From the NCBI GenBank assembly GCA_025363205.1, contig JANYEI010000213.1, forward strand, positions 1 to 43,864: DNA of 43,864 nucleotides. Reading direction: 5' to 3'. Below, in pieces: positions 2,299-36,968 of the stretch (positions within the stretch are counted from its first letter, which is position 1; every line of letters begins with the position of its first letter). The notes beneath the pieces were generated by a model that worked only from the letters and a program-made list of their open reading frames with translations, did no database searches and was not told the DNA's origin. Source of the DNA: Frigoribacterium sp. (GTDB lineage: Bacteria; Actinomycetota; Actinomycetes; Actinomycetales; Microbacteriaceae). A program made the translations under genes and the position numbers.

Positions 2299-2691
2299 AT
2301 GGATTTTCTGCCACTCACCCGTGCCGACGACCTCGGTTGGCACGCCCTCCGCGATGAAATCGCGCCGTGGATCGGGGAACGTGCCGTCACACTCTTCTCC
2401 TACGCGATCTCCGACGAGTACGGGTCTGCGGTCACGACACGATATTTTCGCGACCTCCTCACGGCGGCGGGGGACGATCCGGATCATCCGCAGGTCACCG
2501 AGACGGAACAGCTCATTATCGACTGGGGCCGGCTCATAGTGTCGAGACCGCGCGATATCCCGGAGGCGTTTTATGCCCGTCTCGAGGGCGCGTTCACTCC
2601 AGGGAGACGTCTGGCACTCCTGTCGTTTGCAGCGCGGGTTGTTGCCATCAACCTCGTCAACACCGTCGGTCGCGTGCCGGTCGATGCCTGA
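2299..2691 (+). CDS. Carboxymuconolactone decarboxylase (AhpD-like) superfamily protein
   Basis: A 130-residue, mostly helical protein without signal peptide or membrane segment. Its second half (TEQLIIDWGRLIVSRPRDIP, then a hydrophobic helix LLSFAARVVAINLVNTVGRV and PVD at the end) resembles actinobacterial CMD/AhpD-fold proteins. The CxxC thiol pair used by AhpD peroxidases is absent, so peroxidase activity is not expected and the function is unknown. It starts ten bases after the FAD oxidase gene and has its own leaderless-type -10 box. Its stop codon sits inside a GATGCCT repeat that also contains the start codon of the next gene. Confidence 0.6.
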   Translation: MDFLPLTRADDLGWHALRDEIAPWIGERAVTLFSYAISDEYGSAVTTRYFRDLLTAAGDDPDHPQVTETEQLIIDWGRLIVSRPRDIPEAFYARLEGAFTPGRRLALLSFAARVVAINLVNTVGRVPVDA

Positions 2692-2719
2692 TGCCTGGTG
2701 CCCCTGATGCCTGATGCCT
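2683..2719. repeat. GATGCCT repeats bridging a stop and the next start codon
   Basis: The 7-base unit GATGCCT occurs twice in tandem (2683-2696), then a diverged stretch, then twice more (2706-2719). The TGA stop of the upstream gene (2689-2691) and the ATG of the PrsW gene (2714-2716) both lie inside repeat units. Confidence 0.8.
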
Positions 2720-3913
2720 GATACCGCTGGTGCGGTCCCCTCGGTCGCGATCAATAGCTATCCCGTGTCTGAGCAGAGCGGCCAGGAGCGGATCACTCGT
2801 CCCGTTCGTCGCACTGCCGCGACCGTGCTGCTCGCTTCGCTCGGATTAGTTGTGCTCACAATCGTGATCCTGCTCGTGGCCAGGTACCTCTTGGTCGTGC
2901 TGGGACCAACGGCGTTGACCGTGGCGCTCCTGCTCGCGACCATTCCCCTCGTGGGAGTGCTGCTTTTCATCCGCTGGATCGATCGCTGGGAGCCGGAACC
3001 GCGCGGGGCACTGCTGTTCGCGCTGCTGTGGGGGGCCGGGGCATCCGTTCTGATCGCGTTGATCTTTTCCGGCGTCACCCGGCATTACGAGGCGCTCGCC
3101 GGGCTTGCTGGATCAGGGGTCGCCACGTTCTTCGAGACCGTCGTGCAGGCTCCGATAATCGAGGAGTTCGCCAAGGGGCTCGGCATCCTGCTGATCCTGT
3201 GGGTGATGCGCCGCACCTTCGACGGCCCGGTCGACGGTGTCGTGTACGCCGCGACGATCGCTACCGGGTTCGCCTTCACCGAGAACCTGCAGTACTTCGG
3301 CCTGGCGATCAACCATGACGGCGGATTGGGCAGTGATGTCGCTCAGACCTTCCTGCTGCGCGCCATCCTCTCACCGTTCGCGCACGTGATGTTCACCGCC
3401 TGCACGGGAGTGCTGCTCGGCCTGGCCGCCCAGCGCACCGGCCGCCTCGGAGCGATCGGCTACTTCGTGCTCGGCCTGGTGCCGGCGGTTTTTCTGCACT
3501 CCTTCTGGAACAGCGCCGGATACTGGGCAACCGACTGGTATCGCTACTACTTCGTGGTGCAGGTGCCGCTCTTCCTGCTCGCGATCGCGGGGGTCACCCG
3601 CCTGCGCCGGCTGGAACAGCGACTCACCCGCGCCCGGCTTTCCGAGTACGCGGCGGCCGGCTGGTTTACCGGCTCGGAGGTCAACCTGCTGTCGACCGCG
3701 GCAGGTCGCCAGCAGGTCATCGGTTGGGCGGCACGCCATGGGCTTGGCCGTCCCTACCGAATGTTTGTGCGGGATGCGACGAAATTGGCCTTCACTCGCG
3801 AGCGGCTGGTGAACGGGCGCGACGGAATCGGGGCGAGCCTCGACGAGGCAGTGATCCTCGCGTCGATCGTGAAGCATCGCCGGGAGCTCGCAGCGCTACC
3901 GCCGATGCACTGA
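2714..3913 (+). CDS. PrsW-family intramembrane metalloprotease
   Basis: A 399-residue polytopic membrane protein with about eight hydrophobic segments. It carries the motifs of the PrsW family, glutamic-type membrane proteases distantly related to CAAX proteases: IIEEFAKG (E150, E151, K154), GPVDGVVYA (D174), FTENLQYFG (E190, N191), a histidine at 224 in PFAHVMF and a late LHSFWN. In Bacillus PrsW cleaves the anti-sigma factor RsiW; actinobacterial members are mostly uncharacterised. A cytosolic tail of about 85 residues follows the last membrane segment. No anti-sigma or sigma gene lies next to it. The start ATG lies in a repeat unit and has no obvious ribosome-binding site, so a later start cannot be excluded. 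The stop codon is inside a tandem array. Confidence 0.88.
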   Translation: MPDTAGAVPSVAINSYPVSEQSGQERITRPVRRTAATVLLASLGLVVLTIVILLVARYLLVVLGPTALTVALLLATIPLVGVLLFIRWIDRWEPEPRGALLFALLWGAGASVLIALIFSGVTRHYEALAGLAGSGVATFFETVVQAPIIEEFAKGLGILLILWVMRRTFDGPVDGVVYAATIATGFAFTENLQYFGLAINHDGGLGSDVAQTFLLRAILSPFAHVMFTACTGVLLGLAAQRTGRLGAIGYFVLGLVPAVFLHSFWNSAGYWATDWYRYYFVVQVPLFLLAIAGVTRLRRLEQRLTRARLSEYAAAGWFTGSEVNLLSTAAGRQQVIGWAARHGLGRPYRMFVRDATKLAFTRERLVNGRDGIGASLDEAVILASIVKHRRELAALPPMH

Positions 3914-3993
3914 CGTCTGATGCACTGACGTCCGATGCACTGACGTCCGATGCACTGGCGTCCGATGCACTGGCGTCCGATGCACCCACGTCT
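3904..3993. repeat. Six-copy 15-bp tandem array starting inside the PrsW stop region
   Basis: Six contiguous 15-bp units of the form GATGCACTGACGTCY (3904, 3919, 3934, 3949, 3964, 3979). Unit 1 contains the PrsW stop codon. Because 15 is a multiple of three, units 2 and 3 repeat an in-frame TGA. Units 4 and 5 carry TGG at that place and unit 6 is more diverged. Confidence 0.92.
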
Positions 3994-3996
3994 GCA

Positions 3997-4057
3997 ATCG
4001 ACTTGGTAGTTGTTGCGACTTTTTCGGCGCCAAAGTCACAACAACTACCAAGTCGAT
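3997..4057. repeat. 26-bp near-perfect inverted repeat (REP-like palindrome)
   Basis: The left arm 3997-4022 and right arm 4032-4057 are complementary at 25 of 26 positions (one C/A mismatch, 4016 against 4038) around a 9-base loop. The arms begin ATCGACTTGGTAGTTGTTG. It is much more AT-rich than its surroundings and has no T-run after it, so it does not look like an ordinary intrinsic terminator. It resembles dispersed palindromic elements of the REP/MITE kind, but only one copy is in the window. Confidence 0.85.
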
Positions 4058-4137
4058 GACGGGCGGCCCGGGAGGCGCCGCGCCGCCTCGGGCTACCGGG
4101 CAGAATCACCTCGGTAAGTTGCCCACGCGGGGACACG

Positions 4138-4143
4138 TAAACT
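4138..4143 (+). promoter_or_regulatory. Possible -10 box for the HelD/HelR-type gene
   Basis: TAAACT about 42 bases before the GTG at 4186. No matching -35 hexamer was found at standard spacing. The assignment is tentative. Confidence 0.3.
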
Positions 4144-4185
4144 TGATAGCCGCATTTCAGGACGGCGTTCGAGGGGAATTTGCCA

Positions 4186-6438: not shown

Positions 6439-6441
6439 GTC

Positions 6442-7798: not shown

Positions 7799-8968
7799 AT
7801 GACTGTTCTCACTGACGAGCTGCTGGCCCGCATCCACGAGCGGGCGCCGGGCTACGATCGCGACAACGTGTTCTTCACCGAGGATCTCGAGGAGCTCGCC
7901 TCTGCCGGCTACCTGCGTGCTCTCGTGCCCGAGTCCTTCGGTGGCCTCGGCCTGAGCCTCCAACAGGTTGCCCACCATCAGATGCGTCTCGCGATGGCCG
8001 CCCCGGCGACGGCGCTCGCCGTGAACATGCACCTGGTCTGGACCGGCGTCGCGAAGACCCTGCACGACCGCGGGGTCGACTCGCTCGACTTCGTTTTGCG
8101 GGATGCTGCGGCGGGGGAGATCTACGCCTTCGCGATCAGCGAAGCCGGCAACGACCTCGTGCTGTTCGACAGCACCACGGACGCCAAGCCGCTTCCGGAC
8201 GGCGGCTACGCCTTCACCGGCACCAAGATCTTCACCAGCCTCTCGCCGGCATGGACCCGGCTTGGTCTCTTCGGACTTGACACCGAGTCAGCGGATGCGC
8301 CAAAGCTCGTGCATGCCGTCGTCACCCGCGAGGCGCCGGGAATCTCTATCGCCGAGGACTGGAACACCCTTGGCATGCGGGCGAGCCAGAGCAACACCAC
8401 CCACCTCGATTCGGTGGCCGCGACATCCGACCGGGTGTTCCGCCGCCTCGACCCAGGTCCGAGCCGTGACGCCCTCATCTTCGCCATCTTTGCCAACTTT
8501 GAAATCCTCATCTCCTCCGTGTACGTGGGCATTGGTCAGCGGGCTCTCGAACTCGCGGTCGAATCCGCGCGCTCCCGCGGTTCGCGGAAAACGGGGCTCG
8601 GCCGCGACCAGGATCCGAACGTGCGCTGGAAAATTGCGGATGCGGCGCTCGCGCAGGACGCCATGCTTCCGCAGCTTGATGCGCTGGCGGTCGACCTCGA
8701 CTCCGGCGTCGATCGCGGTGCAGAGTGGTTTCGCGCTCTCGTCGGACTCAAGTCCCGATCGACCCGAACGGCCCGCTACGTAGTCGACCAGGCCATCGCG
8801 GTCGCGGGAGGAGCGGCGTTCTCGGCCACGAGTGAACTCTCCCGGTTGTATCGGGACGTACTCGCGGGCGGATTCCACCCGAGCAACGACGACTCAGTGC
8901 ACTCAACGGTTGCAACGGCGCTGCTGGGGCCGATCATCGAAGACCCGTCGCCTACCCTGAAGACATGA
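7799..8968 (+). CDS. Acyl-CoA dehydrogenase family flavoprotein
   Basis: A 389-residue acyl-CoA dehydrogenase-fold protein. The N-terminal helical domain includes LVPESFGGLGLSLQQVAHHQ. The middle beta domain has FAISEAGND and GYAFTGTKIFTSLSPAW, the typical FAD/substrate-binding stretches. A C-terminal helical bundle includes VDQAIAVAGGAAFSATSELSRLYRDV. Such enzymes introduce a 2,3-double bond into acyl-CoA thioesters using FAD. Some relatives act instead as flavin-dependent monooxygenases or desulfurisation enzymes, and the EAGND motif in place of EPxAGSD makes the exact reaction uncertain. It overlaps the following esterase gene by four bases (ATGA), suggesting coupling. Confidence 0.85.
   Translation: MTVLTDELLARIHERAPGYDRDNVFFTEDLEELASAGYLRALVPESFGGLGLSLQQVAHHQMRLAMAAPATALAVNMHLVWTGVAKTLHDRGVDSLDFVLRDAAAGEIYAFAISEAGNDLVLFDSTTDAKPLPDGGYAFTGTKIFTSLSPAWTRLGLFGLDTESADAPKLVHAVVTREAPGISIAEDWNTLGMRASQSNTTHLDSVAATSDRVFRRLDPGPSRDALIFAIFANFEILISSVYVGIGQRALELAVESARSRGSRKTGLGRDQDPNVRWKIADAALAQDAMLPQLDALAVDLDSGVDRGAEWFRALVGLKSRSTRTARYVVDQAIAVAGGAAFSATSELSRLYRDVLAGGFHPSNDDSVHSTVATALLGPIIEDPSPTLKT
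8953..8958 (+). promoter_or_regulatory. -10 box of an internal leaderless promoter for the esterase gene
   Basis: TACCCT, six bases, ATG (8965). It lies within the last codons of the acyl-CoA dehydrogenase gene, so the esterase may be transcribed on its own as well as with it. Confidence 0.5.
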
Positions 8969-9612
8969 CCTCTTCGCTCGCGATCGATCCCTCTGTCGTC
9001 GTCTGGTCCGTTCCCGAATCAGCGCGGGCGCAGGAGCTCACGACGCGTCCCCTGCTGGTGCTGATGCACGGTCGCGGGTCGCACGAACATGATCTCTTCG
9101 CCCTCGCCGCGATGCTTCCCCCGCAGTTCGTGATCGCCGCGCTCCGCGCGCCGCTTGAGTTGGGTCCGGGGTCATACTCGTGGTTTCCGGTCGGAGAGCC
9201 CGGTCGGCCGAGTTCCGTGGCCGCGGATGTCGCCGTCCAGGCTCTGTTCGACTGGCTGGATTCGATGCGGTCCGTTGCCTCGGTCTCGCTTCTCGGGTTC
9301 TCCCAGGGCGGTGCAATGACCCTTCATGCCCTGCGGCACGCTCCGGAGCGGTTCACCGCCCTGGTGAATCTCGCCGGCTTTGTGATTGGTGGCGACGCTC
9401 CCGCCGATCATTCGCTCGAGACACTGCGACCACCGGTGTTCTGGGGCAGCGATCCGGCGGATCCGGTGATCCCCGCCGAAGCGATTGCGCGCACCGCCGT
9501 GTGGCTTCCCTCGCACTCGACTCTTACGGAGCGTCACTACGCCGGCATCGGGCACTCGATCTCGCGCGAAGAACTTGAGGATGTGAATACGTTTCTGAAC
9601 AGCGCCGTCTGA
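8965..9612 (+). CDS. Phospholipase/carboxylesterase (alpha/beta hydrolase)
   Basis: A 215-residue serine hydrolase of the Abhydrolase_2 family. The oxyanion-hole segment is LVLMHGRGSHEHDL and the nucleophile elbow is LLGFSQGG with S113. The acid is probably D166 in GSDPADPVIP and the base H197 in AGIGHSIS, giving a complete Ser-Asp-His triad. There is no signal peptide, so it is cytoplasmic. The family cleaves short acyl or aryl esters; the substrate is unknown. Its ATGA overlap with the acyl-CoA dehydrogenase gene suggests a two-gene unit, and both could act on the same acyl compound. The last codons (LNSAV-stop) are tandemly duplicated downstream. Confidence 0.88.
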   Translation: MTSSLAIDPSVVVWSVPESARAQELTTRPLLVLMHGRGSHEHDLFALAAMLPPQFVIAALRAPLELGPGSYSWFPVGEPGRPSSVAADVAVQALFDWLDSMRSVASVSLLGFSQGGAMTLHALRHAPERFTALVNLAGFVIGGDAPADHSLETLRPPVFWGSDPADPVIPAEAIARTAVWLPSHSTLTERHYAGIGHSISREELEDVNTFLNSAV

Positions 9613-9680
9613 ACAGCGCCGTTACTTGAACAGTTCCGTCTGAACAGCGCCGTCTCAACAGCGCCGTCTGAACAAGTCCG
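9595..9680. repeat. 14-bp tandem array across the esterase stop codon
   Basis: Units of CTGAACAGCGCCGT at 9595, 9609 and 9640, with variants at about 9623-9639 (a longer, diverged unit), 9654 (CTCAAC start) and 9668. The TGA stop (9610-9612) is in the second unit. The 14-bp period is not a multiple of three, so successive copies change frame. Confidence 0.88.
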
Positions 9681-9694
9681 CCCCCACACAGACT

Positions 9695-9736
9695 CGTCGC
9701 CCGGTGCGGCACTTGGTGCGGCTCTTCCGGGCGACG
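9695..9736. terminator. Possible bidirectional hairpin terminator between convergent genes
   Basis: CGTCGCCCGG (9695-9704) pairs perfectly with 9727-9736 around a 22-base loop, and a T-rich GGTTGTTCT follows on the plus strand. It sits between the convergent esterase and aminotransferase genes. Confidence 0.5.
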
Positions 9737-9786
9737 GGTTGTTCTACTGACAGGATGCTCTCCTCGGGGCCAGAGCGCAATACCCC

Positions 9787-9850
9787 CATTGCTCGAAACC
9801 CGCATTGCTCAAAACCCGCATTGCTCGAAACCCGCATTGCTCAGATCGAA
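9787..9850. repeat. 16-bp tandem array across the aminotransferase stop codon
   Basis: Units of CATTGCTCGAAACCCG at 9787, 9803 (one base different), 9819 and a partial, diverging copy at 9835. The minus-strand stop codon of the aminotransferase (complement at 9841-9843) lies in the last copy. Confidence 0.88.
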
Positions 9851-11187
9851 CTTCGCGCGGGGTGATCGGGCCGCACGCGCTGCCGAGCCACCCGCAGTGC
9901 GCTGTCGAGCTCCGAAAGAAATCGGTCGGCGTCAGCCAGGCTGAAGCAGAGCGGCGGTCGTATCTTCAGCGTGTTTCGGGCTGCTCCGGATGCCCCGAGC
10001 AGCACTCCCCGCCGGCGCAGCTCGTTCACCACGAGGAGGGTCGTCGCCTCGTCAGGGGATTCCCCGCGCACGAGGTCGACCCCAAGAAACAGGCCGGCCC
10101 CGCGTACCTCCCCGAGGGAGTCGTGGAAGCCCGCGAGCATGCCAAGCCCGGCGGTGAGGTACTCGCCGACGACCCGTGCGTTCTCGATCAATCCTTCATC
10201 GCGAATGATGTCGAGCACCGCCTGTGCGGCGGCGATCGAGACCGCTGTGCCACCGAATGTGCTGAAGTATCGCCCGTTGGCAGCGAAGTTATCCACGAGC
10301 TCGCGACAGGCGACAACCGCGCCGATCGGCATGCCGTTACCCATCGGTTTGCCGACCGTCACGAGGTCGGGTACCACTGCCCCGAGGGCGGAGTCGTGGC
10401 GGCTGAAGCCCCACAGGCCGTGGCCAAGACGCCCGAAGCCAGCCTGCACCTCGTCGGCGATGTAGAGGCCGTCCGCGTCGTGCACGATGTCGCTGATGCG
10501 GCCGAGGAAGGCCGCACTGCCCGGCTGTACGCCGTCGGAGGCAAAGATCGAGTCCGCGATGAGCGCGGCAAATCCATGCTCGGAAGTGCCGAGATCTGCG
10601 GCTGCGGTCGCGACGGCGTCCGCGAACACCGCGCCGTCGCCGGTAGGAGCCTCCACGAGGCGCACCCACGGAGCGATGTTGTCGACGCCGCCGAGGGACG
10701 GCGAGACCGCTGCGGTCTCGGTGGTGACCCCGTGGTAGGCGTTTCGAGTGACGATCACGCCTCGTTTGCCGGTCACGGTTGTCGCGATCCGCAGGGCGAG
10801 ATCATTCGCCTCGGAACCGGTGCAGGTGTACATGACGTTCGCGAGCGCAGGGGGCAGCGTGCCGAGCAGATCTTCGGAGTAGTCGATCAGCGAACGGTCG
10901 AGGTAGCGGGTATTCGTATTGACGAGAGCCGCCTGGCGCGAAATGGCCTCGACCACCCGAGGATGCGAATGGCCCACTGAGGGCACGTTGTTGTACACGT
11001 CGAGGAACTCGGTGCCCGCCGCATCCCAAAGCTTCGAGCCGAGGCCGCGCACGATCTCGACGGGCTCGTCGTAGAACAGCCGATAGGCCGACCCGAGGCT
11101 GCGGTTACGGCGTTCGACCAGCAGGCGGGTCGGCTCGCTCAATTCGTCGAGGCGGTCGTTGCTCAAATAGGTGCTCGGTCCTGGCAT
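9841..11187 (-). CDS. Class-III PLP aminotransferase family protein, phospho-lyase-like
   Basis: 448 residues with the class-III (subgroup II) aminotransferase fold. NVPSVGHSHP is followed by TGSEANDLALR (about 122-133), AYHGVTTETAAVSP, the PLP-anchoring aspartate in IADEVQAGFGR (D245) and the Schiff-base lysine in LVTVGKPMGNG (K280). The sequence resembles the ETNPPL/PHYKPL group, human enzymes that cleave phosphoethanolamine or 5-phosphohydroxylysine rather than transaminate. The gene directly upstream on the same strand (nine bases between them) encodes a small-molecule kinase of the same fold as hydroxylysine kinase. Together they suggest phosphorylation of an amino alcohol followed by PLP-dependent phosphate elimination. 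The specific substrate is an inference. Ordinary transamination remains the alternative. Confidence 0.82.
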   Translation of the reverse strand: MPGPSTYLSNDRLDELSEPTRLLVERRNRSLGSAYRLFYDEPVEIVRGLGSKLWDAAGTEFLDVYNNVPSVGHSHPRVVEAISRQAALVNTNTRYLDRSLIDYSEDLLGTLPPALANVMYTCTGSEANDLALRIATTVTGKRGVIVTRNAYHGVTTETAAVSPSLGGVDNIAPWVRLVEAPTGDGAVFADAVATAAADLGTSEHGFAALIADSIFASDGVQPGSAAFLGRISDIVHDADGLYIADEVQAGFGRLGHGLWGFSRHDSALGAVVPDLVTVGKPMGNGMPIGAVVACRELVDNFAANGRYFSTFGGTAVSIAAAQAVLDIIRDEGLIENARVVGEYLTAGLGMLAGFHDSLGEVRGAGLFLGVDLVRGESPDEATTLLVVNELRRRGVLLGASGAARNTLKIRPPLCFSLADADRFLSELDSALRVARQRVRPDHPARSSI

Positions 11188-11193
11188 GATTCG

Positions 11194-11199
11194 ACCCTA
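11194..11199 (-). promoter_or_regulatory. -10 box of a leaderless promoter for the aminotransferase gene
   Basis: On the minus strand TAGGGT, six bases, ATG. It overlaps the end of the upstream kinase gene, so the aminotransferase may also be made from its own transcript. Confidence 0.5.
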
Positions 11200-12240
11200 C
11201 TGGCGCACCCCTCCCGTCGGCACAGGCGATTGCCGCAGACTCACGAACTGTCGCCAGGTGGATTCGAGATTGCGCGCGGTGTACTGCGAATTCTCGGGCC
11301 GTGCTTCGGCCAGCCAGGATGCGAGGAGCAGCCGCTGGGCGAGCCGACCGAGCACGAGGTGCGGAAGGAGAACTGACTCCGCGTCAGATAGCGACACCAG
11401 TTCGCGATAGCCGGAGGCGAGAGCGATGGCCGGGGCCCAGGGGTTGTCCGCCCGCGACGATGGCCTCGCATACGACATCGCGATAGCGAGGTCTGCGACA
11501 CGATGGCTTCGCACGACATCGCCGAAGTCGAGGATTCCGGTGATGAAGTCGGGCGCCTCGGGGTGAACGACAAGGTTGCCGCCGTGGAAGTCGTTGTGCA
11601 CCACCCGCCTCGGGGTCAGCTGCAGCGCTGGCAGCGTCTCGGCTGACAGCTCCGCGAGCAGGGTGGCAACTGCGCGCCGCCGATGCTCGCCATCGATCAC
11701 GGGCGCCAGCTCCGATAATTCGCCGAGGCGCGCGAGATCCCAGGCGAGCCAGCGGTCGGCTGCCGGATGCTCGAAGTCGACCAACGCGCCGGTGAGGCGC
11801 CCGAGCATCCGCCCGACCGCGCGCCAGTCGGACGGGGAGGGATCGACCTCGCTAAGCAGACGGCCCGGGAGATAGCGGAAGAGCCTCACCGCGCGGTCGC
11901 CGTGGCTGGTTGAGGGGCCGAGCGAAGGCACGAATTGTTGGAGCGGCAGCGAGCTGTCCTGCGCCGCGGCGTGGGCGATAGCGGCCTCCTGGAGCCCGAT
12001 CTCAGCCGGATCGTCGCCGGGTGCTGAGATCTTTAGCACGAAGCCGTGGGGGTCGCCGGTGACGGCCAACCGAAAGGTATCGTCGCGCTCGGTTGCGAGC
12101 CTGGTGATGGAGGCGGCCGTCACCCCGAAGCATCGCAGCGCGACGGTGGCGGCCTCGGCCGGTGGGGTGCGCTCGAACGCGACGCCGAGTCCGGCAAGGA
12201 GACGGCGTGTCAACTCAGTTGCCGGGAGTGCCTCATGCAT
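11197..12240 (-). CDS. APH-fold small-molecule kinase (hydroxylysine kinase/aminoglycoside phosphotransferase family)
   Basis: 347 residues of the APH family. The ATP-binding lysine is probably K70 in GFVLKIS, the catalytic loop is VVHNDFHGGNL (H215, D217, N222), and ILDFGD (D238) binds magnesium. In APH-type kinases this set transfers phosphate to a hydroxyl group of a small molecule. The neighbouring PLP enzyme argues for an amino-alcohol substrate rather than an antibiotic. In other bacteria such kinase and class-III aminotransferase domains are found fused in one protein, which supports a joint function. The start ATG has a CAGACT box six bases upstream. Confidence 0.8.
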   Translation of the reverse strand: MHEALPATELTRRLLAGLGVAFERTPPAEAATVALRCFGVTAASITRLATERDDTFRLAVTGDPHGFVLKISAPGDDPAEIGLQEAAIAHAAAQDSSLPLQQFVPSLGPSTSHGDRAVRLFRYLPGRLLSEVDPSPSDWRAVGRMLGRLTGALVDFEHPAADRWLAWDLARLGELSELAPVIDGEHRRRAVATLLAELSAETLPALQLTPRRVVHNDFHGGNLVVHPEAPDFITGILDFGDVVRSHRVADLAIAMSYARPSSRADNPWAPAIALASGYRELVSLSDAESVLLPHLVLGRLAQRLLLASWLAEARPENSQYTARNLESTWRQFVSLRQSPVPTGGVRQ

Positions 12241-12276: not shown

Positions 12277-12352
12277 CAGACACAGCAGCAGCCAGACACA
12301 GCAGCAGGCAGACACAGCAGCAGCCAGACACAGCAGCAGCCAGGCACCGCAG
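12277..12352. repeat. 16-bp tandem array between the kinase gene and NERD-1
   Basis: Four 16-bp units CAGACACAGCAGCAGC (12277, 12293, 12309, 12325; one base differs in unit 2) plus a diverged partial fifth. It lies between divergent genes and upstream of both promoters. Confidence 0.92.
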
Positions 12353-18737: not shown

Positions 18738-18881
18738 ATGAGCGTGGGGCATTGCCGTGCGTTACTCGCTCGTGTGCCAGCAGCGGATGCTCCCCGGCTG
18801 CGTTCCCGTTCTTCCTTCTACGACCTGTTAGTTGCCAGTCCGGATCAGATCGAGCCCGCCATCAAGACGACAAAGTCCTAG
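18738..18881 (+). CDS. Doubtful small ORF (47 aa)
   Basis: A 47-codon frame, ATG to TAG, with no recognisable family, ribosome-binding site or leaderless box. It is listed because its stop codon overlaps the first copy of an 18-bp tandem duplication, as at several real genes in this window. An unrelated reading frame extends upstream to 18642. It may be chance or a remnant. Confidence 0.2.
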   Translation: MSVGHCRALLARVPAADAPRLRSRSSFYDLLVASPDQIEPAIKTTKS

Positions 18882-18915
18882 TCCCGCCAATGAGCCCAGT
18901 CCCGCCAATGAGCCC
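18880..18915. repeat. Perfect 18-bp tandem duplication
   Basis: Two identical copies of AGTCCCGCCAATGAGCCC at 18880-18897 and 18898-18915. The first copy begins with the last two bases of a TAG. Confidence 0.92.
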
Positions 18916-18974
18916 GGTCGAGGAAAATCTCGGGGTAGCCTCGGCGCGTGTCACCGCCACCCTGCCGGGCTGCA

Positions 18975-19781: not shown

Positions 19782-19870
19782 AAACGGGATACTGCGTATT
19801 TGCGGTGGGAGAAAGAGCATGCTCCCCGCGGCATATGTCGATGCCGCACCCTGTGTAAAACTCCGCAAAG

Positions 19871-19972
19871 CTCCCGTGATACCCCCGTGATACCCCCGTG
19901 CAAAACCCCGTGCCAAAGCGCGTGCCAAACCGTGTGCAAAGCCCCCGTGCAATACCCCCGTTTAGGCGTGCC
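19871..19972. repeat. Degenerate 11-13-bp repeats between divergent genes
   Basis: About seven imperfect copies of a CCCCCGTGCAAAA-like unit (variants CCCCCGTGATA, CCCCGTGCCAAAG, CCGTGTGCAAAG). It lies between the acyltransferase and NERD-2 promoters and looks like an older, diverged tandem array. Confidence 0.7.
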
Positions 19973-20041: not shown

Positions 20042-20707
20042 GTGACAGATCTTGCAGCGAACAGAGGGGCCGATTCGAGGCGGCACGGTCGCGCGGAGTT
20101 TGTTACCACGGAGACGACGCGGCGCATCGGTTTCACTTTCCGTGCTCTATTCGGTCGCGGGGGCGCACCGGAGGCCACGCCAGGATGGAACACTGAGGCT
20201 CCCACGGAGTATGAGCTCGGTCGCATGCTGACATCGCTCGACGACCGCTTCACGGTGCTCCGCGCATTCGACGTCTTCGGCGACCTGGATGCCGACTTCG
20301 TGGTCGTGGGGCCCGCCGGACTCTTTCTCATCACCAGCAGGGTGCAAAGTAACGCCAAGGTCTGGGTCGACGAAGAGGTTCTCTGGGTCAATGGTCGACC
20401 GACCAACCGGGTGCGCGATGCGCGAAATGCTGCCGATCGGGCATCCGCTCGGTTTAGTGCGGTGGTAGGTCAACCCGTTCGCGCGACCCCGGTCATTGCG
20501 GTCATGAATCCTCTCTCGTTGTCGTTCGGCGGCGAGCCCACACAACGTGTCGTCACCCTTCCGGCGGATCTGGTGACCCAGTGGCTCTCCGACTGTTCCC
20601 GAACGCTCTCCGATGACGCTGTCGCCGACTTCGCACTAATTGCGGAAGATCGTGCCACCTGGGGACCGCCACCGAGCGGCTCCAGCCGGCTGGCGCGAGT
20701 GCGCTGA
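20042..20707 (+). CDS. NERD-domain-like protein 2 (degenerate)
   Basis: 221 residues, related to NERD-1 and NERD-3 over the core: YELGRMLTSLDDRFTVLRAFDV, DADFVVVGPAGLFLITSR, KVWVDEEVLWVNG and DDAVADFALIAEDRATW. One acidic residue is kept (DADF), but the site lysine is replaced (ITSRVQ). The C-terminal membrane segment of the other two is missing, so this looks like a catalytically dead, soluble paralogue. GTG start with GGGGGA four bases upstream. It is 182 bases before NERD-3 on the same strand, each with its own promoter-like box. Its stop codon lies in an 18-bp tandem duplication. Confidence 0.68.
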   Translation: MTDLAANRGADSRRHGRAEFVTTETTRRIGFTFRALFGRGGAPEATPGWNTEAPTEYELGRMLTSLDDRFTVLRAFDVFGDLDADFVVVGPAGLFLITSRVQSNAKVWVDEEVLWVNGRPTNRVRDARNAADRASARFSAVVGQPVRATPVIAVMNPLSLSFGGEPTQRVVTLPADLVTQWLSDCSRTLSDDAVADFALIAEDRATWGPPPSGSSRLARVR

Positions 20708-20734
20708 GTTAGTCGGGTGCGCTGAGTTAATCGG
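20699..20734. repeat. 18-bp tandem duplication across the NERD-2 stop codon
   Basis: Two copies of GTGCGCTGAGTTAGTCGG (20699-20716 and 20717-20734, one base different). The TGA stop is at 20705-20707 in the first copy. Confidence 0.9.
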
Positions 20735-20755
20735 GTGCAGGGTCTTTCGTCGGCT

Positions 20756-20830
20756 GTTCCCACCCGTTCTGTTCCCACCCGTTCTGCTGCCACCCGTTCT
20801 GCTGCCACCCGTTCTGGGGCTGCCCGTTCT
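20756..20830. repeat. Five-copy 15-bp tandem array upstream of NERD-3
   Basis: Units GTTCCCACCCGTTCT (two copies), GCTGCCACCCGTTCT (two copies) and GGGGCTGCCCGTTCT (one), at 20756, 20771, 20786, 20801 and 20816. It ends 28 bases before the NERD-3 -10 box, so it occupies the position of upstream regulatory DNA. Confidence 0.92.
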
Positions 20831-20858
20831 GGGGATACACAGTGCTCGATCCCCCGTC

Positions 20859-20864
20859 TAGCCT
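20859..20864 (+). promoter_or_regulatory. -10 box of NERD-3
   Basis: TAGCCT, six bases, ATCA, then GGGGGA and the ATG at 20890. Same layout as NERD-2. Confidence 0.45.
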
Positions 20865-20889
20865 TGCAATATCAGAGCTTGGGGGAGCG

Positions 20890-22095
20890 ATGAACGACTC
20901 GCGTGGGAGCGCAGTGCACGAAGCGACAACGGTTATGCAGAACGGGCAGTTGCACTGCATCGAAACCCCCGTCTCTCCCGTTGGCCTCGTCGCTGCTGAG
21001 GAGTCTCCCTTCTCGGGTCCGATCACCACTGGTCCACTGCTCCCCGGCCTCTGTTTCACCCAGGGGTTCGACAGCGAACCCTTCGTCGTCTCCGCACACA
21101 CGGCGGCACCGGTGCCCGCGGAACGAACTGGCGTCGAGCAGGTCGCAGGAAAGCCGGCGACCACTGCCGTCCCGACCACTGCCGTCCCAACCACTTCCGT
21201 CCCGACCACTGCCGCCGCACGAGTCGACCCTCTGGCTGCTGTCGCATCTGACTTCACCGCCGAGTCCCGCTCCTGGTGCATCGAACCGAACCTCGCAGCA
21301 CGCGGTCCGGCATACTCCGTTATGCAGGAGTGTCTCGCTCGCCAGGAGGTGGCTACGCCTCGCGGTCGACTCGCTCGGGCGCTGGGCAGCAGCCCGCTGC
21401 ATCCGGATGCCCGCACTTGGTACAGCGGCGCTCTCGGCGAGATCGTGGTCGCGAACGCGCTTGCCCAGCTGGGAGAGGGGTGGACCGTACTGCACGCGGT
21501 GCCGGTGGGCTCCACGAGCGCCGAGATCGATCACCTGATTCTCGGCCCCGGCGGCATCTTCACAATCAACACCAAGAACCACTCTGGCAAGAAGATCTGG
21601 ATTGGCGGAAGCACGTTCCTGGTGAACGGCTATAAGCAGGAGCACATGCGAAACTCCGCCCATCAGGCCGAGCGGGCATCTCGGCTGCTCAGCAGCGTGA
21701 CCGGGCGCCCGGTCACGGTGACCCCGCTCATCGTGGTGGTCAATCCGTCATCCATCACGACCGGGCGTAAGCAACCGCGCATCACCGTACTCTCCAGCAA
21801 CACGCTCAAGCGCTGGCTGGTGAAACGACCCCGCGTGCTGTCGGATCGCGCCGTCGCCCACTTCTCGATGTTCGCTGAAGAGCGCAGCACCTGGCACACC
21901 GAGCCCGTGACGATGAATGACACCACCGACCGGCTGTGTCGATTTGGGGAGCTCCGAATTGCGGTGGATACCGCCCGCCAGCGCGCCCGCCTGTGGCTCC
22001 TTGTATTCGGTGTGGGAGCCATCCTGATAACCCCGGTCGCCATCGCCCAGATTGTGCGCCTGCTCGCGTCGTTTCTGGTCATTCCCGGCCGCTGA
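20890..22095 (+). CDS. NERD-domain protein 3 (intact site, membrane anchor)
   Basis: 401 residues. Residues 1-130 are a variable, low-complexity region that includes a TTAVP-type 5-residue repeat. The NERD domain (about 175-320) shows YSGALGEIVVANALAQLG, WTVLHAVPVG, EIDHLILGPGGIFTINTKNH and KIWIG. It retains E, D and the lysine (NTK), so it is the best nuclease candidate of the three. Residues about 365-395 form a hydrophobic segment (LWLLVFGVGAILITPVAIAQ), suggesting a membrane-tethered protein facing the cytoplasm. NERD proteins are widespread but their cellular role is largely unknown. ATG start with GGGGGA three bases upstream. Stop-proximal tandem repeats follow. Confidence 0.8.
   Translation: MNDSRGSAVHEATTVMQNGQLHCIETPVSPVGLVAAEESPFSGPITTGPLLPGLCFTQGFDSEPFVVSAHTAAPVPAERTGVEQVAGKPATTAVPTTAVPTTSVPTTAAARVDPLAAVASDFTAESRSWCIEPNLAARGPAYSVMQECLARQEVATPRGRLARALGSSPLHPDARTWYSGALGEIVVANALAQLGEGWTVLHAVPVGSTSAEIDHLILGPGGIFTINTKNHSGKKIWIGGSTFLVNGYKQEHMRNSAHQAERASRLLSSVTGRPVTVTPLIVVVNPSSITTGRKQPRITVLSSNTLKRWLVKRPRVLSDRAVAHFSMFAEERSTWHTEPVTMNDTTDRLCRFGELRIAVDTARQRARLWLLVFGVGAILITPVAIAQIVRLLASFLVIPGR
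21161..21215. repeat. 15-bp in-frame repeat within NERD-3
   Basis: Three full units CCACTGCCGTCCCGA (21161, 21176, 21191; one base varies in each later unit) and a partial fourth, encoding TTAVP-TTAVP-TTSVP-TTAA in the linker before the NERD domain. Confidence 0.9.
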
Positions 22096-22096
22096 C

Positions 22097-22144
22097 CTGC
22101 GACTGGCACGGACTGCGACTGGCACGGACTGCGGCTGGCACGGA
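22097..22144. repeat. 16-bp tandem array directly after the NERD-3 stop
   Basis: Three units CTGCGACTGGCACGGA at 22097, 22113 and 22129 (one base different in the third), beginning two bases after the TGA stop and followed by a partial copy. It lies between convergent genes. Confidence 0.92.
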
Positions 22145-22156
22145 CTCACGACTGGG

Positions 22157-23840: not shown

Positions 23841-23880
23841 TCAGCACATGACCGAACAGCTCAGAGCATGACCGAACAGC
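23841..23880. repeat. 20-bp tandem duplication across the SOUL start codon
   Basis: 23841-23860 and 23861-23880 are the same 20-bp segment with two differences. Each copy contains CATGACCGAACAGC, so the start codon is present twice. Confidence 0.92.
23848..23871 (+). CDS. Seven-codon upstream ORF created by the duplication
   Basis: ATG at 23848 opens MTEQLRA followed by TGA at 23869-23871. Its stop overlaps the SOUL gene ATG (23868) as ATGA, an arrangement typical of translational coupling. Whether it is translated is an inference. Confidence 0.4.
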   Translation: MTEQLRA

Positions 23881-24409: not shown

Positions 24410-25807
24410 ATGGGGGACAACCGGCAGAGGAACATCGCGCTTCTCGTCGCCGGCACATTCTTCATGGAGAATCTCGACGGCACGATCCTCACCACTGCCG
24501 CCCCGAGCATCGGTCGGTCGCTCGGTGTGCCGTCGGTTGCGGTCGGCATCACGATCACGGCCTACTTGCTGACGCTCGCCGTGCTCATCCCGCTGAGTGG
24601 ATGGATCACCCGGCGCCTCGGGTCACGTCGTGTTTTCCTTGCAGCCATTGCGATCTTCACCCTCGCCTCGGTGCTCTGTGCGCTCAGCACGAGCCTGCCC
24701 GAACTCACCATCATGAGGGTGCTGCAGGGCGTTGGGGGAGCGATGATGGTGCCGGTCGGTCGGCTCGCGGTGCTCCGCGTCACCGACCGCACCGATCTCA
24801 TCCGCGCCATCGCACTGCTCACCTGGCCGGCGCTGGTTGCGCCCATCGTCGCGCCTCTCGCCGGGGGGATCATCACGACCTACTTCACCTGGCACTGGAT
24901 CTTTCTCATCAACGTGCCGCTCGGTATCGTCGCCTTCGTGACCGCTCTGCTGATAATCCCCGCGGAGGAGCGCGAGTCGCCGCCCCGGCTGGACTGGCTG
25001 GGGCTCGCGCTCACCTGCACCGGACTCGGCTCGCTGGTCTACCTCGGCTCCCTGTTGGCCGAGCGCGATCCCGGCGTGCTCGCAACCATCGGCTGGGCGG
25101 TCGTCGGTTTTGGCCTGGTGGGCCTCGCGATCACGCACCAGTTGCGCGCGCGGCATCCGTTGCTCGACCTCCGGGCGCTGCGCATTGAGACCTTTCGCCT
25201 CTCGCACGCGGGCGGATCCCTGTTCCGGCTCACGGTGAACGCGGTTCCATTCTTGCTACCGCTGCTCTTCCAGGATGTCTTCGGTTACTCGCCGCTGCTC
25301 TCCGGTGCGCTCGTGCTTTTCGTGTTTGTCGGCAATCTCGCCATCAAACCGGCAACGACATTCTTGCTGCGGCGCTTCGGATTCCAACCGGTGATCGTGG
25401 CTGCCAGCGCTGCGGCCGCCCTGTCGATGGCGCTCATGGCTCTGCTTTCTCGCTCGACCCCGTTGTGGCTCGTGATCGTGCTCCTCACCGCCAGCGGGGT
25501 GGCGCGCTCCACCGGTTTCACCGCCTACAACACCATCGCGTTCGCCGACGTGGAGCGGTTCGAAATGACGGATGCCAACACCCTCGCCTCAACGCTGCAA
25601 CAGCTCGCGGCGGGCTTCGGCGTCGCCGTCGGGGCCGTAGCCCTGCGGCTGGGGGAGGGCTTCGCTTCCGGATCGAGCGGATCGAGCGGATCGGGTGCCT
25701 TCGGCTTCGCGTTCGCGGTGCTCGCGGTGCTCACGGCGTTCGCGACCGTTGAGGCATTGCTGTTGTCGCGGACTGCGGGGGAGAACATCCGTCCGGGGCG
25801 AGGGTAG
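24410..25807 (+). CDS. MFS drug exporter, DHA2 (EmrB/QacA-like) family
   Basis: 465 residues with about 13-14 hydrophobic segments. Membrane segment 1 contains ENLDGTILTTAAPSI, the DHA2 motif corresponding to the D-x-TIVNxALP signature. It is followed by LIPLSGWITRRLGSRRVF and IMRVLQGVGGAMMVPVGRL (motif C-like region). It should export organic compounds using the proton gradient. A short Gly-Ser repeat (SGSSGSSGSG) near residue 425 is encoded by a 9-bp tandem repeat in a loop before the last membrane segment. It starts 29 bases after the SOUL gene. Confidence 0.88.
   Translation: MGDNRQRNIALLVAGTFFMENLDGTILTTAAPSIGRSLGVPSVAVGITITAYLLTLAVLIPLSGWITRRLGSRRVFLAAIAIFTLASVLCALSTSLPELTIMRVLQGVGGAMMVPVGRLAVLRVTDRTDLIRAIALLTWPALVAPIVAPLAGGIITTYFTWHWIFLINVPLGIVAFVTALLIIPAEERESPPRLDWLGLALTCTGLGSLVYLGSLLAERDPGVLATIGWAVVGFGLVGLAITHQLRARHPLLDLRALRIETFRLSHAGGSLFRLTVNAVPFLLPLLFQDVFGYSPLLSGALVLFVFVGNLAIKPATTFLLRRFGFQPVIVAASAAAALSMALMALLSRSTPLWLVIVLLTASGVARSTGFTAYNTIAFADVERFEMTDANTLASTLQQLAAGFGVAVGAVALRLGEGFASGSSGSSGSGAFGFAFAVLAVLTAFATVEALLLSRTAGENIRPGRG
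25670..25696. repeat. 9-bp in-frame repeat in the exporter gene
   Basis: GGATCGAGC twice and GGATCGGGT once, encoding a Gly-Ser-rich loop. Confidence 0.85.
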
Positions 25808-25960: not shown

Positions 25961-26014
25961 GTCCGTCCGCCGTCCGAAGTCCGCCGTCATCCGCCGTCAT
26001 CCCCGTCATTCCCG
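25961..26014. repeat. CCGTC-rich low-complexity repeats
   Basis: CCGCCGTCAT at 25981 and 25991 in tandem, followed by CCCCGTCATT and preceded by related GTCCGCCGTC units. Confidence 0.75.
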
Positions 26015-31205: not shown

Positions 31206-31235
31206 AACCACGGATTCGGTCGGCGCGCGGAGCAG

Positions 31236-31280
31236 TGTTCGGTTCGGCCCTGTTTAGTTCGGCACTGTTCGGTTCGGAGC
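31236..31280. repeat. Three-copy 15-bp tandem repeat upstream of the gene at 31314
   Basis: TGTTCGGTTCGGCCC, TGTTTAGTTCGGCAC and TGTTCGGTTCGGAGC at 31236, 31251 and 31266. It lies between the response regulator stop and the next promoter. Confidence 0.85.
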
Positions 31281-32535: not shown

Positions 32536-32541
32536 CTGGCA

Positions 32542-33842: not shown

Positions 33843-33892
33843 CGTCGCCGTAGACGAATTCAACGGTTGAGGCGATTGTGCAGTCGTAATTT

Positions 33893-35152
33893 TCACTGCG
33901 CTGCGTCGCTGTGTCGGGCGTGTCGAAAGGGGGATACGGCGAGGAAAACTGTGACGACGACAAACCCGGAAATGGCGATCCACAACGTTGGTTGATATCC
34001 GATGGCGACCGCGAGGAATCCGCCAAGGGGTGCGCCGATGACGATCATTGCGCGGTTGGCGGATCGAATCGTCGTGTTCATCCGGCCTTGCAGGCGATCG
34101 GGAGTGACGAGTTGGCGATAGCCCATTTCGTTTGCGTTGCTCAGCCCGAGCGCCAGCCCGTAAAGGGACTGACCGACAGCGAGTATGGCGATGACAATCC
34201 AGGTGGGGCTATGCCCTGTCGGGACCACGGCAATCACCGCCCACGCGACAACCATGAGCGCATCGCAGAGGATGACCGTGCGTCCGGCTCCCCAGAGCAG
34301 TCCGACACGGGTCGAGTACGAGCTGCCAACCAGTGCGGTGACGCCGGCTGCGGCCAGCGTGATTCCGAACTGCAGAGCAGACAGATGCAAATCAAGAAGA
34401 GCGAATGAGACGAACACGGTTCCGAGCATGCTGTTGAAGAGGAACCAGCCGTGGGAGCCGATCGCCATCGGCCCAAGCACTCGATGCCGGTACACCCACC
34501 GAAGTCCCTCCGCGATTTCAGAACGAAGTCCACGCGACTGCCCGGCACCCTCTTTACGGGTTTCGTCGACGTGAATTCGGGATATGGCCAGTGCAGAGAA
34601 CAGGTAAGAAGCGGCGTCGACAAGCACTGCGAGAGGTGCGCCGGCGAGGGCGACCAGTCCGCCCGCGACGAGAGGACCGGAGGTTTGGGCTACTGCGTCG
34701 CTTTGGTCTGTCCGTGCGTGCGCCGCCAACAGCGATCGTTTCGGCACGACGCGGGGGAGGAACGATTGAGATGCTGCGTCGCCGAAAAGGGAAAAAACAC
34801 CGAAGAAGGCCACGAACACAATCAGGACAGCGGTGTTCAGCCAGCCCGCGATGTAGAGGATCGGAATCGCCCCGAGAAGGACGGCTCGAGCAAGATCGGT
34901 GCCGATGAGGATCGGTCTGCGTCGTCGACGATCAACGAGCGCACCGACGATCACGCCCAGCAGCAGATATGGCAGCCATCTGGCCGCGTTCAGCAGCCCA
35001 ACATCCCCCGCAGTGCCGTGCAGCGTCAGCAGAACAAGAACCTGGAGCGCAAGGGTCGTGACGTATGTACCGAAACCCGACACCGTGTAGGCCGACCAGA
35101 ACGCAAAGTAGCCGGGAATCCGGAAGACATCCTCCGGGTCGCGAACCGCCAT
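33893..35152 (-). CDS. MFS transporter (macrolide-efflux-like)
   Basis: 419 residues with 12 hydrophobic segments of the MFS_3 type: FWSAYTVSGFGTYVTTLALQ, GVIVGALVDRRRRRPIL (motif A), FGDAASQSFLPRVVP and the C-terminal LVTPDRLQGRMNTTIRSANR. It is a relative of the transporter at 6442-7773 but not a recent duplicate. It probably exports a small molecule. The ATG is preceded by a GGCGGGGG stretch. Its promoter region contains a 16-bp tandem duplication carrying two copies of a -10-like box. It is divergent from the membrane protein/regulator pair. Confidence 0.87.
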   Translation of the reverse strand: MAVRDPEDVFRIPGYFAFWSAYTVSGFGTYVTTLALQVLVLLTLHGTAGDVGLLNAARWLPYLLLGVIVGALVDRRRRRPILIGTDLARAVLLGAIPILYIAGWLNTAVLIVFVAFFGVFSLFGDAASQSFLPRVVPKRSLLAAHARTDQSDAVAQTSGPLVAGGLVALAGAPLAVLVDAASYLFSALAISRIHVDETRKEGAGQSRGLRSEIAEGLRWVYRHRVLGPMAIGSHGWFLFNSMLGTVFVSFALLDLHLSALQFGITLAAAGVTALVGSSYSTRVGLLWGAGRTVILCDALMVVAWAVIAVVPTGHSPTWIVIAILAVGQSLYGLALGLSNANEMGYRQLVTPDRLQGRMNTTIRSANRAMIVIGAPLGGFLAVAIGYQPTLWIAISGFVVVTVFLAVSPFRHARHSDAAQ

Positions 35153-35178
35153 CGGTACCCCCGCCTGTGTCCGCCTCT

Positions 35179-35210
35179 ACAACACAGTATCGGCACAACA
35201 CAGTATCGGC
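35179..35210 (-). repeat. Perfect 16-bp tandem duplication with two -10-like boxes
   Basis: Two identical copies of ACAACACAGTATCGGC (35179-35194, 35195-35210). Read on the minus strand each holds TACTGT, at 35184-35189 and 35200-35205, upstream of the MFS gene. Confidence 0.88.
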
Positions 35211-35309
35211 ACAGCGCTCTTTCGCGCCCGGCAATCTGCGCTCATCGCGGTACCTCCGAGGTTGGCTGGGCAGATCTCAATAACTCCCGCGTGCAATTAA
35301 AGAATGTAC

Positions 35310-35324
35310 TTTCTAAATAAGAAA
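35310..35324. promoter_or_regulatory. Possible operator: TTTCT-AAATA-AGAAA inverted repeat
   Basis: A perfect 5-bp inverted repeat in an AT-rich patch 21-35 bases before the start of the membrane protein gene. The pair's winged-helix regulator could bind here. Tentative. Confidence 0.3.
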
Positions 35325-35344
35325 CAACATGCAAGTATGACTTC

Positions 35345-35803: not shown

Positions 35804-36116
35804 GCCCCATCCGCGGCATGGATTGAAGCAGACTCTTCTCTCCCCGGTCAGGCTGTCGATCGTCGCGGCGCTGTCTGAAGTAGAGCGAGCAGACTTCAAA
35901 TCGCTGGGTGCCATCATCGAACTGTCCGACTCCACACTGTCGAAGAATCTGGCGACACTGGAGGAAGAAGAAATCGTGAGCATTGAGAAGGGACGAATCA
36001 ACCGGAAACCCCGAACCTGGGTTCGGCTCACTCCAGCCGGTCGACAGGCGTTCCACGCCCACCTTGAAGCGCTTCGTGCCACCATCTCCACCAAATACTC
36101 TGGCCTTGAGGACTGA
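35793..36116 (+). CDS. Winged-helix transcriptional regulator (MarR/ArsR-like)
   Basis: 107 residues. A single winged-helix domain: LLSPVRLSIVAALSEVERAD, recognition helix LSDSTLSKNLATLEEEEIVS and the wing KGRINRKPRTWVRLTPAGRQ. This is the HTH_34-type fold, usually a dimeric repressor. It overlaps the preceding membrane protein gene by 11 bases and probably controls the promoter before it. The start ATG is chosen because the family sequence begins there; longer readings run through the membrane protein gene in another frame. Confidence 0.82.
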   Translation: MSPEPHPRHGLKQTLLSPVRLSIVAALSEVERADFKSLGAIIELSDSTLSKNLATLEEEEIVSIEKGRINRKPRTWVRLTPAGRQAFHAHLEALRATISTKYSGLED

Positions 36117-36503
36117 ACGTCAAATCTTCCTCGACGGCAACGCGGACCTCGCGCGTTTCCCGACTCTTGGTCACTTGGCCCCTCATAGCGCTCCTGAACA
36201 TCATTCGACTATTGGAGTCGAATCTGCTTGGTGGCGGGGTTGATCCGATACCCGCACGATTGCCATTCGACCCCAGCTCACCGCGATCGCCATTCCGCCA
36301 TCCGGGCGCTTTCAGGGGCAGCCAAGTTCACGCGCTGGCGAAGACGGAGCCGGTCGACAACTGCGTAATTCACAGCGGTTCGTCCTGATGCTCGGGGGTT
36401 CAACCGAATGTGACGGCGACCCGATTCGGCATCCTGGTAGCGCGGTTCCGGCCCGTCCGGGCGTCCTGCCGGAATGCTCAGGATGGCCCGGCATGATTAT
36501 TGG
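36117..36503. other. Intergenic stretch, nothing recognised
   Basis: About 390 bases between the regulator and the VanZ-like pseudogene. No convincing reading frame, tRNA or repeat. GGGGGTTCAACCGA near 36397-36410 looks like a tRNA T-loop, but no matching stem or acceptor is present. Confidence 0.4.
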
Positions 36504-36938
36504 ATGTTCCGTCGGCATCCCTTTCTCAGCCTTACGACTGTGATCTACCTCGCGGTCGTCTGCTGGATCACACTCGGTCCGCAGCCGATCAACACCGGCA
36601 ACGGCTATTAGCTCTGGCGTGCGCTGCGCTTTTTCTCAAGCCACGAATCGACCAGATGGCTCACCTATAACCGCGTCGAGTTTCTCGCGAACGTGGCGAT
36701 GTTCGTGCCGATCGGTATCTTCTTCGTGCTGTTGTTTGGGCGCCGGCTGTGGTTCATGAGTGTCATCAGCGGCATCCTGCTCACCCTGGCGATCGAGTTC
36801 GCCCAACTATTCATCCCCGGGCGAGTCTCCGATGTGCGGGATCTGGTCGCCAACAGCCTCGGCACGATGATCGGAGTCCTGGTCGCGCTGGTGCTCACGC
36901 GCGCGAAGGCCCGTCGATTGCGCACCCAGCGAGCCTGA
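36504..36938 (+). pseudogene. VanZ-family membrane protein with in-frame amber codon
   Basis: The reading frame MFRRHPFLSLTTVIYLAVVC, WITLGPQPINTGNGY is interrupted by TAG at 36609-36611. It then continues in the same frame (LWRALRFFSSHES, NRVEFLANVAMFVPIGIFFV, IEFAQLFIPGRVSDVRDLVA, NSLGTMIGVLVALVL) to the stop at 36938. The whole is about 144 codons with four membrane segments. WITLGPQP, EFLANVAMFVPIG and DVRDLVANSLG are typical of VanZ-like proteins. Everything except one codon is intact, so the lesion is recent, a sequencing error, or tolerated by reinitiation at ATG 36693. An in-frame ATG at 36483 is an alternative start. Confidence 0.8.
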
Positions 36939-36968
36939 TTGCGCTATTCGGCCGCGCTGGTGCTCACG
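36885..36968. repeat. 15-bp repeat of the VanZ-like gene end beyond its stop
   Basis: GCGCTGGTGCTCACG occurs at 36885-36899 inside the gene and again at 36954-36968 after its stop, 69 bases apart. Confidence 0.6.

Follow-up and report, generated by a model that had tools for sequence, protein, structure and literature searches.

Genus-wide short tandem duplications in Frigoribacterium: position at gene ends, unit size and CTG/CAG content

Short tandem arrays were analyzed in a 43,864-bp stretch of Frigoribacterium sp. DNA (hereafter, the window), which is one whole contig (JANYEI010000213.1) of a 264-contig, 3.31-Mb metagenome bin with 90% completeness. The arrays belong to a real, genus-wide class of minisatellites that is shaped, as far as tested, by ordinary selection, and whose unit size and triplet signature go beyond what plain slippage predicts. 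They probably originate from a lineage-specific mutational process that makes 14–18-bp tandem duplications, which are then filtered by selection.

According to this reading, tandem duplications of approximately 14–18 bp would arise widely over the chromosome in a lineage without detectable MutS, and slippage would then add and remove further copies. Purifying selection would decide their survival. Inside genes, almost only units that are multiples of three would be retained, and few duplications would survive at start codons and promoters. With a duplication spanning a stop codon, the first copy would preserve the gene up to and including its first stop, and the duplication would be silent at any length, so that arrays would pile up at and just behind stops. 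We infer that slippage is the source of the copies and that selection alone sets their position.

The genome of the window (G000) was sampled over 1.27 Mb of its 3.31 Mb, and 15,057 of the sampled bases were N. Genes in this sample (1231) were predicted by a codon-based caller without curated annotation. Tandem Repeats Finder (TRF) detected 122 noncoding and 106 coding arrays in it; the noncoding density is an underestimate, because the noncoding length includes the N bases. In the sister genome (G006, same genus), a 34,585-bp contig is syntenic with the window and 87% identical to it over positions 8900–11300, and G004 (two contigs) shows 76% identity to the same interval. G012 consists of 10 contigs and is 99% complete; G000 and G006 are incomplete. 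Noncoding arrays with units of 12–22 bp (158 in total) were pooled from six genomes, namely, the above four, G007, and G018.

Excess of arrays and their concentration at stop codons

In the window, 15 arrays were found (TRF score of at least 50, overlapping rows merged), compared with a mean of 0.63 and a maximum of 2 in 30 segment-wise dinucleotide shuffles; 12 of them have units of 12–22 bp. A predicted stop codon is overlapped by six of the 12 noncoding arrays, while random placement gives 1.5 (P 0.0013), and seven of the 12 lie within 2 bp of a stop. Enrichment at stops had been proposed from the window sequence alone (the original prediction), and it also holds in the own-genome sample and in the relatives. 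In the six genomes, a stop is straddled by 52 of the 158 noncoding arrays, i.e., at two to three times the density at other silent positions, and the density declines with distance.

The expected share of stop-straddling arrays was calculated from all positions where a 19-bp duplication would leave both neighboring genes intact. Stops are straddled by 30 of 84 arrays in tandem gaps (12.6 expected, P 3e-6) and by 22 of 48 in convergent gaps (12.8 expected, P 0.005), whereas arrays of divergent gaps (26) have no stop available to straddle. With stricter gene calls, the corresponding values were 31/86 (11.1 expected) for tandem gaps and 19/50 (9.3 expected) for convergent gaps. The density reaches 11–18 arrays per 10,000 positions within 20 bp on either side of a stop, versus about 7 (convergent) and 3 (tandem) beyond 80 bp and 3.7 in divergent gaps. 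In tandem and convergent gaps alike, it peaks at and immediately behind the stop and declines to under half of this past 80 bp. In addition, convergent gaps hold 44 of 147 arrays on one sixth of gap bases, and divergent gaps hold 22 of 147 on one third.

A stop peak that decays over approximately 80 bp, in convergent gaps too, would also fit a link to transcription ends, where RNA polymerase or R-loops stalled behind stops, on a transcript no longer covered by translation, provoke template slips. We consider this explanation unlikely, since selection foresees much the same map and duplications are common inside genes, as the 106 coding arrays of the own-genome sample indicate.

The reading frame separates the two classes of sites. 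Of the 127 arrays inside genes, 124 have a unit length divisible by three (remainders 124/0/3), whereas the 52 arrays at stops follow no frame rule (period modulo 3 of 20/19/13), because the end of the gene is preserved in the first copy; the other 106 noncoding arrays gave 46/31/29. In 51 of 58 stop crossings, the gene end lies inside the first copy (3 bases allowed), and the remaining seven genes, e.g., the esterase gene of the window, run further. Since a gene ends at its first stop, this figure is partly definitional, and the proper test lies in the frame counts. A duplication over a stop leaves the gene untouched, while a duplication over a start need not. The frame rule inside genes and its absence at stops give a clean picture of selection acting. 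Slippage tolerated just outside coding ends had been suggested as the simplest explanation of the arrays; the tolerance is borne out by these data, but plain slippage leaves the 14–18-bp peak and the CTG content described below unexplained.

Comparison with related species showed that array turnover is fast. Of 14 window sites aligned to the G006 and G004 genomes, 12 are comparable in the sister (the alignment at 18880 is unreliable and 35179 has no counterpart). The turnover is evident because eight of the 12 sites (3902, 9782, 19865, 20699, 20760, 21158, 22097, and 25980) have no TRF array in the sister and two (9594 and 12277) carry a different unit in the same place. The remaining two have a similar unit, with about the same copy number at 2687 and fewer copies at 31232. 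Copy number differs between related species, as seen among the window, G006, and G004.

An assembly artefact of the metagenome bin is barely credible. The window is indeed a whole contig of a 264-contig assembly. However, a similar size peak and CTG content occur in the relatives assembled into 2 and 10 contigs, and copies within many arrays differ from one another. The original prediction had named artefactual copies as a possible objection; this is unlikely, because the arrays also occur in the better-assembled G004 and G012.

As for DNA repair, staggered breaks filled in and then sealed by Ku/LigD end joining would yield tandem copies of overhang length without homology. Ku matches were found in G004, G007, and G018, but there was no Ku match in G000, G006, and G012. 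Since G012, the genome densest in arrays, is 99% complete and has no Ku match, end joining is not needed; this very improbable explanation was rejected, largely on G012. Loss of the Pol I flap exonuclease domain was ruled out, as all six genomes carry a 5'-3' exonuclease domain of the Pol I type. No MutS_V match was detected in any of the six genomes tested, and NucS_C was found in five of them, without a match in the incomplete G000; this agrees with the repair background of actinobacteria, in which NucS takes the place of MutS. Passages of one report state that almost all Actinobacteria lack mutSL and that loss of NucS in Streptomyces does not considerably affect the indel rate (PMC11109965).

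Unit length and CTG/CAG content

Unit length was assessed using exact tandem duplications with units of 5–80 bp in noncoding DNA of the own-genome sample (n = 87). Units of 14–18 bp account for 36 of them, 10–12 bp for nine, 13 bp for three, and 19–28 bp for three; another 36 have units of 5–9 bp, where shuffles yield about 10. Ten shuffles gave no exact duplication with a unit above 10 bp. As the 14–18-bp group is absent from shuffles and few units lie between and beyond, the size clustering is real and goes beyond a detection limit. The clustering noted previously at 14–20 bp appears here as a peak at 14–18 bp.

The 14–18-bp share in relatives was 28/50 in G012, 7/18 in G004, 6/18 in G007, and 2/10 in G018. 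Exact 13–18-bp duplications number 50 per Mb in the own genome, 190 in G012, 40 in G007, 29 in G006, 21 in G004, and 10 in G018. There were none in 200 kb of E. coli K-12. Samples of other genera (11–21 kb each) gave from 0 to 150 per Mb and are little informative. G012 (loci L174–L183), with nearly four times the own-genome density, has a smaller genome.

The units differ from locus to locus, in agreement with the earlier view that one process acts on many sites and that no single mobile repeat is involved. The arrays are not copies of tRNA or known RNA, since neither a tRNA nor an Rfam match at gathering score was found anywhere in the window. However, the claim that the unit sequences are unrelated does not hold, because they share CTG/CAG. 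This triplet is present in 117 of 152 noncoding units (72.8 expected) and, when 15–18-bp noncoding arrays are counted once per gap, in 86 of 103 (47.5 expected, binomial P 6e-15), with z 7.6 versus 3.7 for the next-ranked trinucleotide. CTG was chosen after viewing all 32 triplets, and 32-fold correction gives P near 2e-13. Backgrounds were computed without N runs from random noncoding windows of the same or similar length.

By genome, the 86 arrays were distributed as follows: own genome 45/57, G004 12/12, G012 16/17, G018 5/5, G006 4/4, and G007 4/8. By period, CTG/CAG was found in 16/30 arrays at 12–14 bp, 92/111 at 15–18 bp, and 18/22 at 19–22 bp, although any triplet is likelier by chance in longer units. 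Windows flanking the arrays were at background (65/136; background 46%), and the signature is therefore a property of the unit and not of the neighborhood. Exact duplications contain CTG/CAG in 33 of 48 cases inside genes (19.5 expected) and in 63 of 72 noncoding cases of 15–18 bp, several events per array included. The signature is barely seen in coding TRF arrays as a whole (65/127, 57.0 expected, z 1.4) and is absent from arrays of score 36–49 (17/35, as by chance). Six Frigoribacterium loci gave 8/17 arrays, with coding state unsorted and one array in two loci.

No CTG spacing of 14–18 bp was found outside arrays, and a search for a longer motif around CTG revealed weak neighbors only. On the coding strand of tandem gaps, ACTG was found in 18/84 arrays against 4.4 and CACTG in 11/84 against 1.5. 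When convergent arrays were turned to the nearest stop, the counts were 6 vs 5 for ACTG and 2 vs 0 for CACTG, and a longer motif is therefore not claimed. CTGA (8 vs 2 in convergent gaps) is confounded by the TGA stop codon. CTG bases vary less between copies (4.5% vs 7.0%, P 0.02); this is not special, because ATG, AGC, and GCA behave likewise.

Together, these data leave room for a genus-wide sequence-directed process, possible but doubtful, in which a CTG-recognizing factor in unwound DNA duplicates the surrounding 15–18 bases, both in genes and between them. The factor may be the lagging-strand primase or RNA polymerase stalled at transcript ends. If so, gene ends would tolerate the products and gain new downstream sequence and, occasionally, new stop codons.

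The most plausible such process is priming by DnaG on the lagging-strand template, in which a failed joint between fragments would leave about 16 overlapping nt that are sealed as a tandem copy. The CTG/CAG excess in noncoding 15–18-bp arrays and exact in-gene copies, its lead over the next triplet, the high share from 15 bp upward compared with 12–14 bp, and the background level in flanks all favor it. According to passages in PMC5204125 and PMC5429622, E. coli DnaG starts on 5'-CTG, but other bacteria start on CTA or CCC, and the start triplet of this lineage may differ.

In G004 and G018, replichores were assigned from dnaA, and pieces of three other genomes were placed by matching them to G004 (own genome, 15 of 56; G012, 4 of 10; G007, 2 of 10); the terminus was assumed to lie opposite. 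GC skew was rejected as a proxy, its sign being inconsistent by replichore in the G004 and G018 samples. On the lagging template, CTG-only units outnumbered CAG-only units by 37 to 25 in noncoding arrays and by 9 to 4 in coding exact duplications (4.3 and 4.2 expected). However, the noncoding excess is not significant (P 0.16), convergent and divergent gaps together gave 13 vs 16, and G004 alone gave 7 vs 7. CTG occupies no fixed distance from the edge in 46 two-copy arrays, its offsets being spread over the unit. Given also the lack of excess in low-score arrays and in coding TRF arrays as a whole, priming by DnaG appears unlikely. A mild edge excess was observed among 116 TRF arrays, with CTG exactly at the start of 15 and exactly at the end of 15. 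In 7 of 18 perfect two-copy arrays, the edges overlap by at least 3 bases, which fits slippage.

The orientation relative to genes speaks in part for the transcription-end explanation. On the coding strand of tandem gaps, CTG-only units prevail over CAG-only units (40 vs 19, P 0.009), with 19 vs 4 in co-directional gaps and 5 vs 5 in head-on gaps; convergent arrays turned to the nearest stop gave 19 vs 12. However, in exact duplications inside genes, neither triplet predominates on the coding strand (CTG 19, CAG 20).

Several observations weigh against the preferred reading, i.e., duplication by a lineage-specific process with slippage and selection. Slippage does not foresee a peak at 15–17 bp over 10–13 bp, and CTG/CAG in 86 of 103 units lies outside its prediction. 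In convergent gaps, where promoters are not expected, the stop density is about twice that of the interior (17.9 vs 7.7 per 10,000); selection on hidden elements could be the cause of this excess. Noncoding arrays away from stops lean slightly to multiples of three (46/106), which neutrality does not require. Moreover, the expected stop share rests on an assumed first duplication of 19 bp and on a non-curated gene caller.

Arrays of the window

The arrays at places named in the original prediction were recovered by TRF at 3902, 9594, 9782, 18880, 20699, 22097, 12277, 20760, 21158, 25669, 31232, and 35179. The arrays, based on TRF, gene calls, and alignment, are as follows:

2687..2718, 16-bp × 2.0 array covering the stop of ORF 2299–2691; at this site, the sister carries a partly similar unit in 2.1 copies
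3902..3985, 15-bp × 5.6 array, in which PrsW-family ORF 2714–3913 ends after 12 bases; no TRF array in the sister (by eye, one clear copy and degenerate ones)
9594..9674, 14-bp × 5.6 array over the end of esterase ORF 8965–9612, with the stop in the second copy; unrelated 18-bp array in the sister
9782..9842, 16-bp × 3.8 array at the 3' end of aminotransferase ORF 9841–11187 (minus strand), overlapping it by 2 bases; single copy in the sister
12277..12352, CAG-rich 16-bp × 4.8 array upstream of ORF 11197–12240; unrelated 15-bp array in the corresponding gap of the sister
18880..18919, 18-bp × 2.2 array at the end of a doubtful ORF (ending at 18881); alignment to the sister is unreliable
19865..19958, degenerate 11–23-bp array in a divergent gap; not in the sister
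20699..20738, 18-bp × 2.2 array over the stop of ORF 20042–20707; not in the sister or G004
20760..20831, 15-bp × 4.8 array upstream of NERD ORF 20842–22095; related 2.1-copy array in G004, no TRF array in the sister
21158..21214, in-frame 15-bp × 3.8 array within the NERD ORF; the sister lacks an array at this site
22097..22155, 16-bp × 3.6 array filling the 61-bp convergent gap between the stops of 20842–22095 and 22157–23572, 1 base from each gene; not in the sister
23847..23880, plus strand, two imperfect 20-bp copies with 14 identical bases, each with ATG, at the start of ORF 23868–24380; read directly
25669..25693, in-frame 9-bp × 2.8 array within MFS ORF 24410–25807
25980..26009, intergenic 10-bp × 3.1 array; not in the sister
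31232..31277, intergenic 15-bp × 3.1 array; a related unit occurs in 2.0 copies in the sister
35179..35213, perfect 16-bp × 2.2 array upstream of ORF 33893–35152; no aligned counterpart in G006 or G004

Among the genes said to end in arrays, those of PrsW, the esterase, and ORF 20042–20707 do so, while the array at the aminotransferase gene overlaps it by just 2 bases. The array assigned to the end of a third NERD gene adjoins the stop at a distance of 1 base but lies in the gap and not over the stop. The labels of the second and third NERD genes were right in part, since Pfam gave a NERD match for ORF 20842–22095 only and none for ORF 20042–20707. The small ORF at 18880 (36 codons, low score) was correctly called doubtful. 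The array proposed at a start codon (23841) is a real repeat, with a 14-base run at an offset of 20, but it is weak, imperfect, and missing from the TRF list. The series had been extended to 36968, where the repeat is not tandem: positions 36884–36968 hold a 16-base direct repeat at an offset of 69 around the end of ORF 36693–36938.

Some neighboring sequences were also observed. Within the esterase array (9594–9612), where the stop lies in the second 14-bp copy, the last residues of the protein differ by eye from the sister sequence. Between the convergent esterase and aminotransferase genes lies a noncoding block (9683–9790) that is conserved and contains a GC-rich hairpin; arrays stand on both sides of it and hardly enter it. 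It has one match per genome in 8 of 13 genus genomes, own included, with 87–98% identity in the seven others, in four of these over the first 63–78 bases only, and is possibly a shared terminator or small RNA. Behind the PrsW gene, an inverted repeat with arms of about 26 bp (3991–4062) is kept in the sister; the rest of the own-genome sample holds one similar copy and some partial ones. The repeat resembles a terminator or a small mobile hairpin.

Comparison with known repeat systems

Among the papers listed for the topic, no title or abstract opening reported this duplication class. REP (repetitive extragenic palindromic)/BIME (bacterial interspersed mosaic element) sequences, mycobacterial interspersed repetitive units (MIRU), and similar elements each represent a single family with copies at many intergenic sites, in some cases over stop codons. 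The present arrays differ from these and from miniature inverted-repeat transposable elements (MITE) in that each site has its own unit, with CTG/CAG alone in common. Flap-endonuclease mutants of yeast accumulate duplications flanked by short repeats, i.e., tandem copies of tens of bases; here, in contrast, the corresponding Pol I-type domain is retained in all genomes examined.

The closest likeness is to bacterial minisatellites, used as markers in multiple-locus variable-number tandem repeat (VNTR) analysis (MLVA), which have units of more than 9 bp, vary in copy number among relatives, and are noncoding or in frame. The arrays described here likewise consist of head-to-tail units of at least 10 bp, with copy number differing between related species. 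Clavibacter belongs to the same family as the source organism. In an MLVA paper on Clavibacter michiganensis, a term search found neither 'intergenic' nor 'stop codon' (PMC3691591). Short tandem repeats across prokaryotes obey the same reading-frame rule in coding DNA, as indicated in a survey (PMC12699852); the survey covers units of 1–9 bp, and the present class is therefore outside it.

The arrays provide a natural record of minisatellite birth in bacteria without MutS. The preferred unit size and CTG content look like an enzyme footprint, which is testable with public genomes. VNTR loci are usually treated as scattered typing markers, whereas here they form a lineage-wide 14–18-bp class with CTG/CAG in the unit and a pile-up at stop codons.

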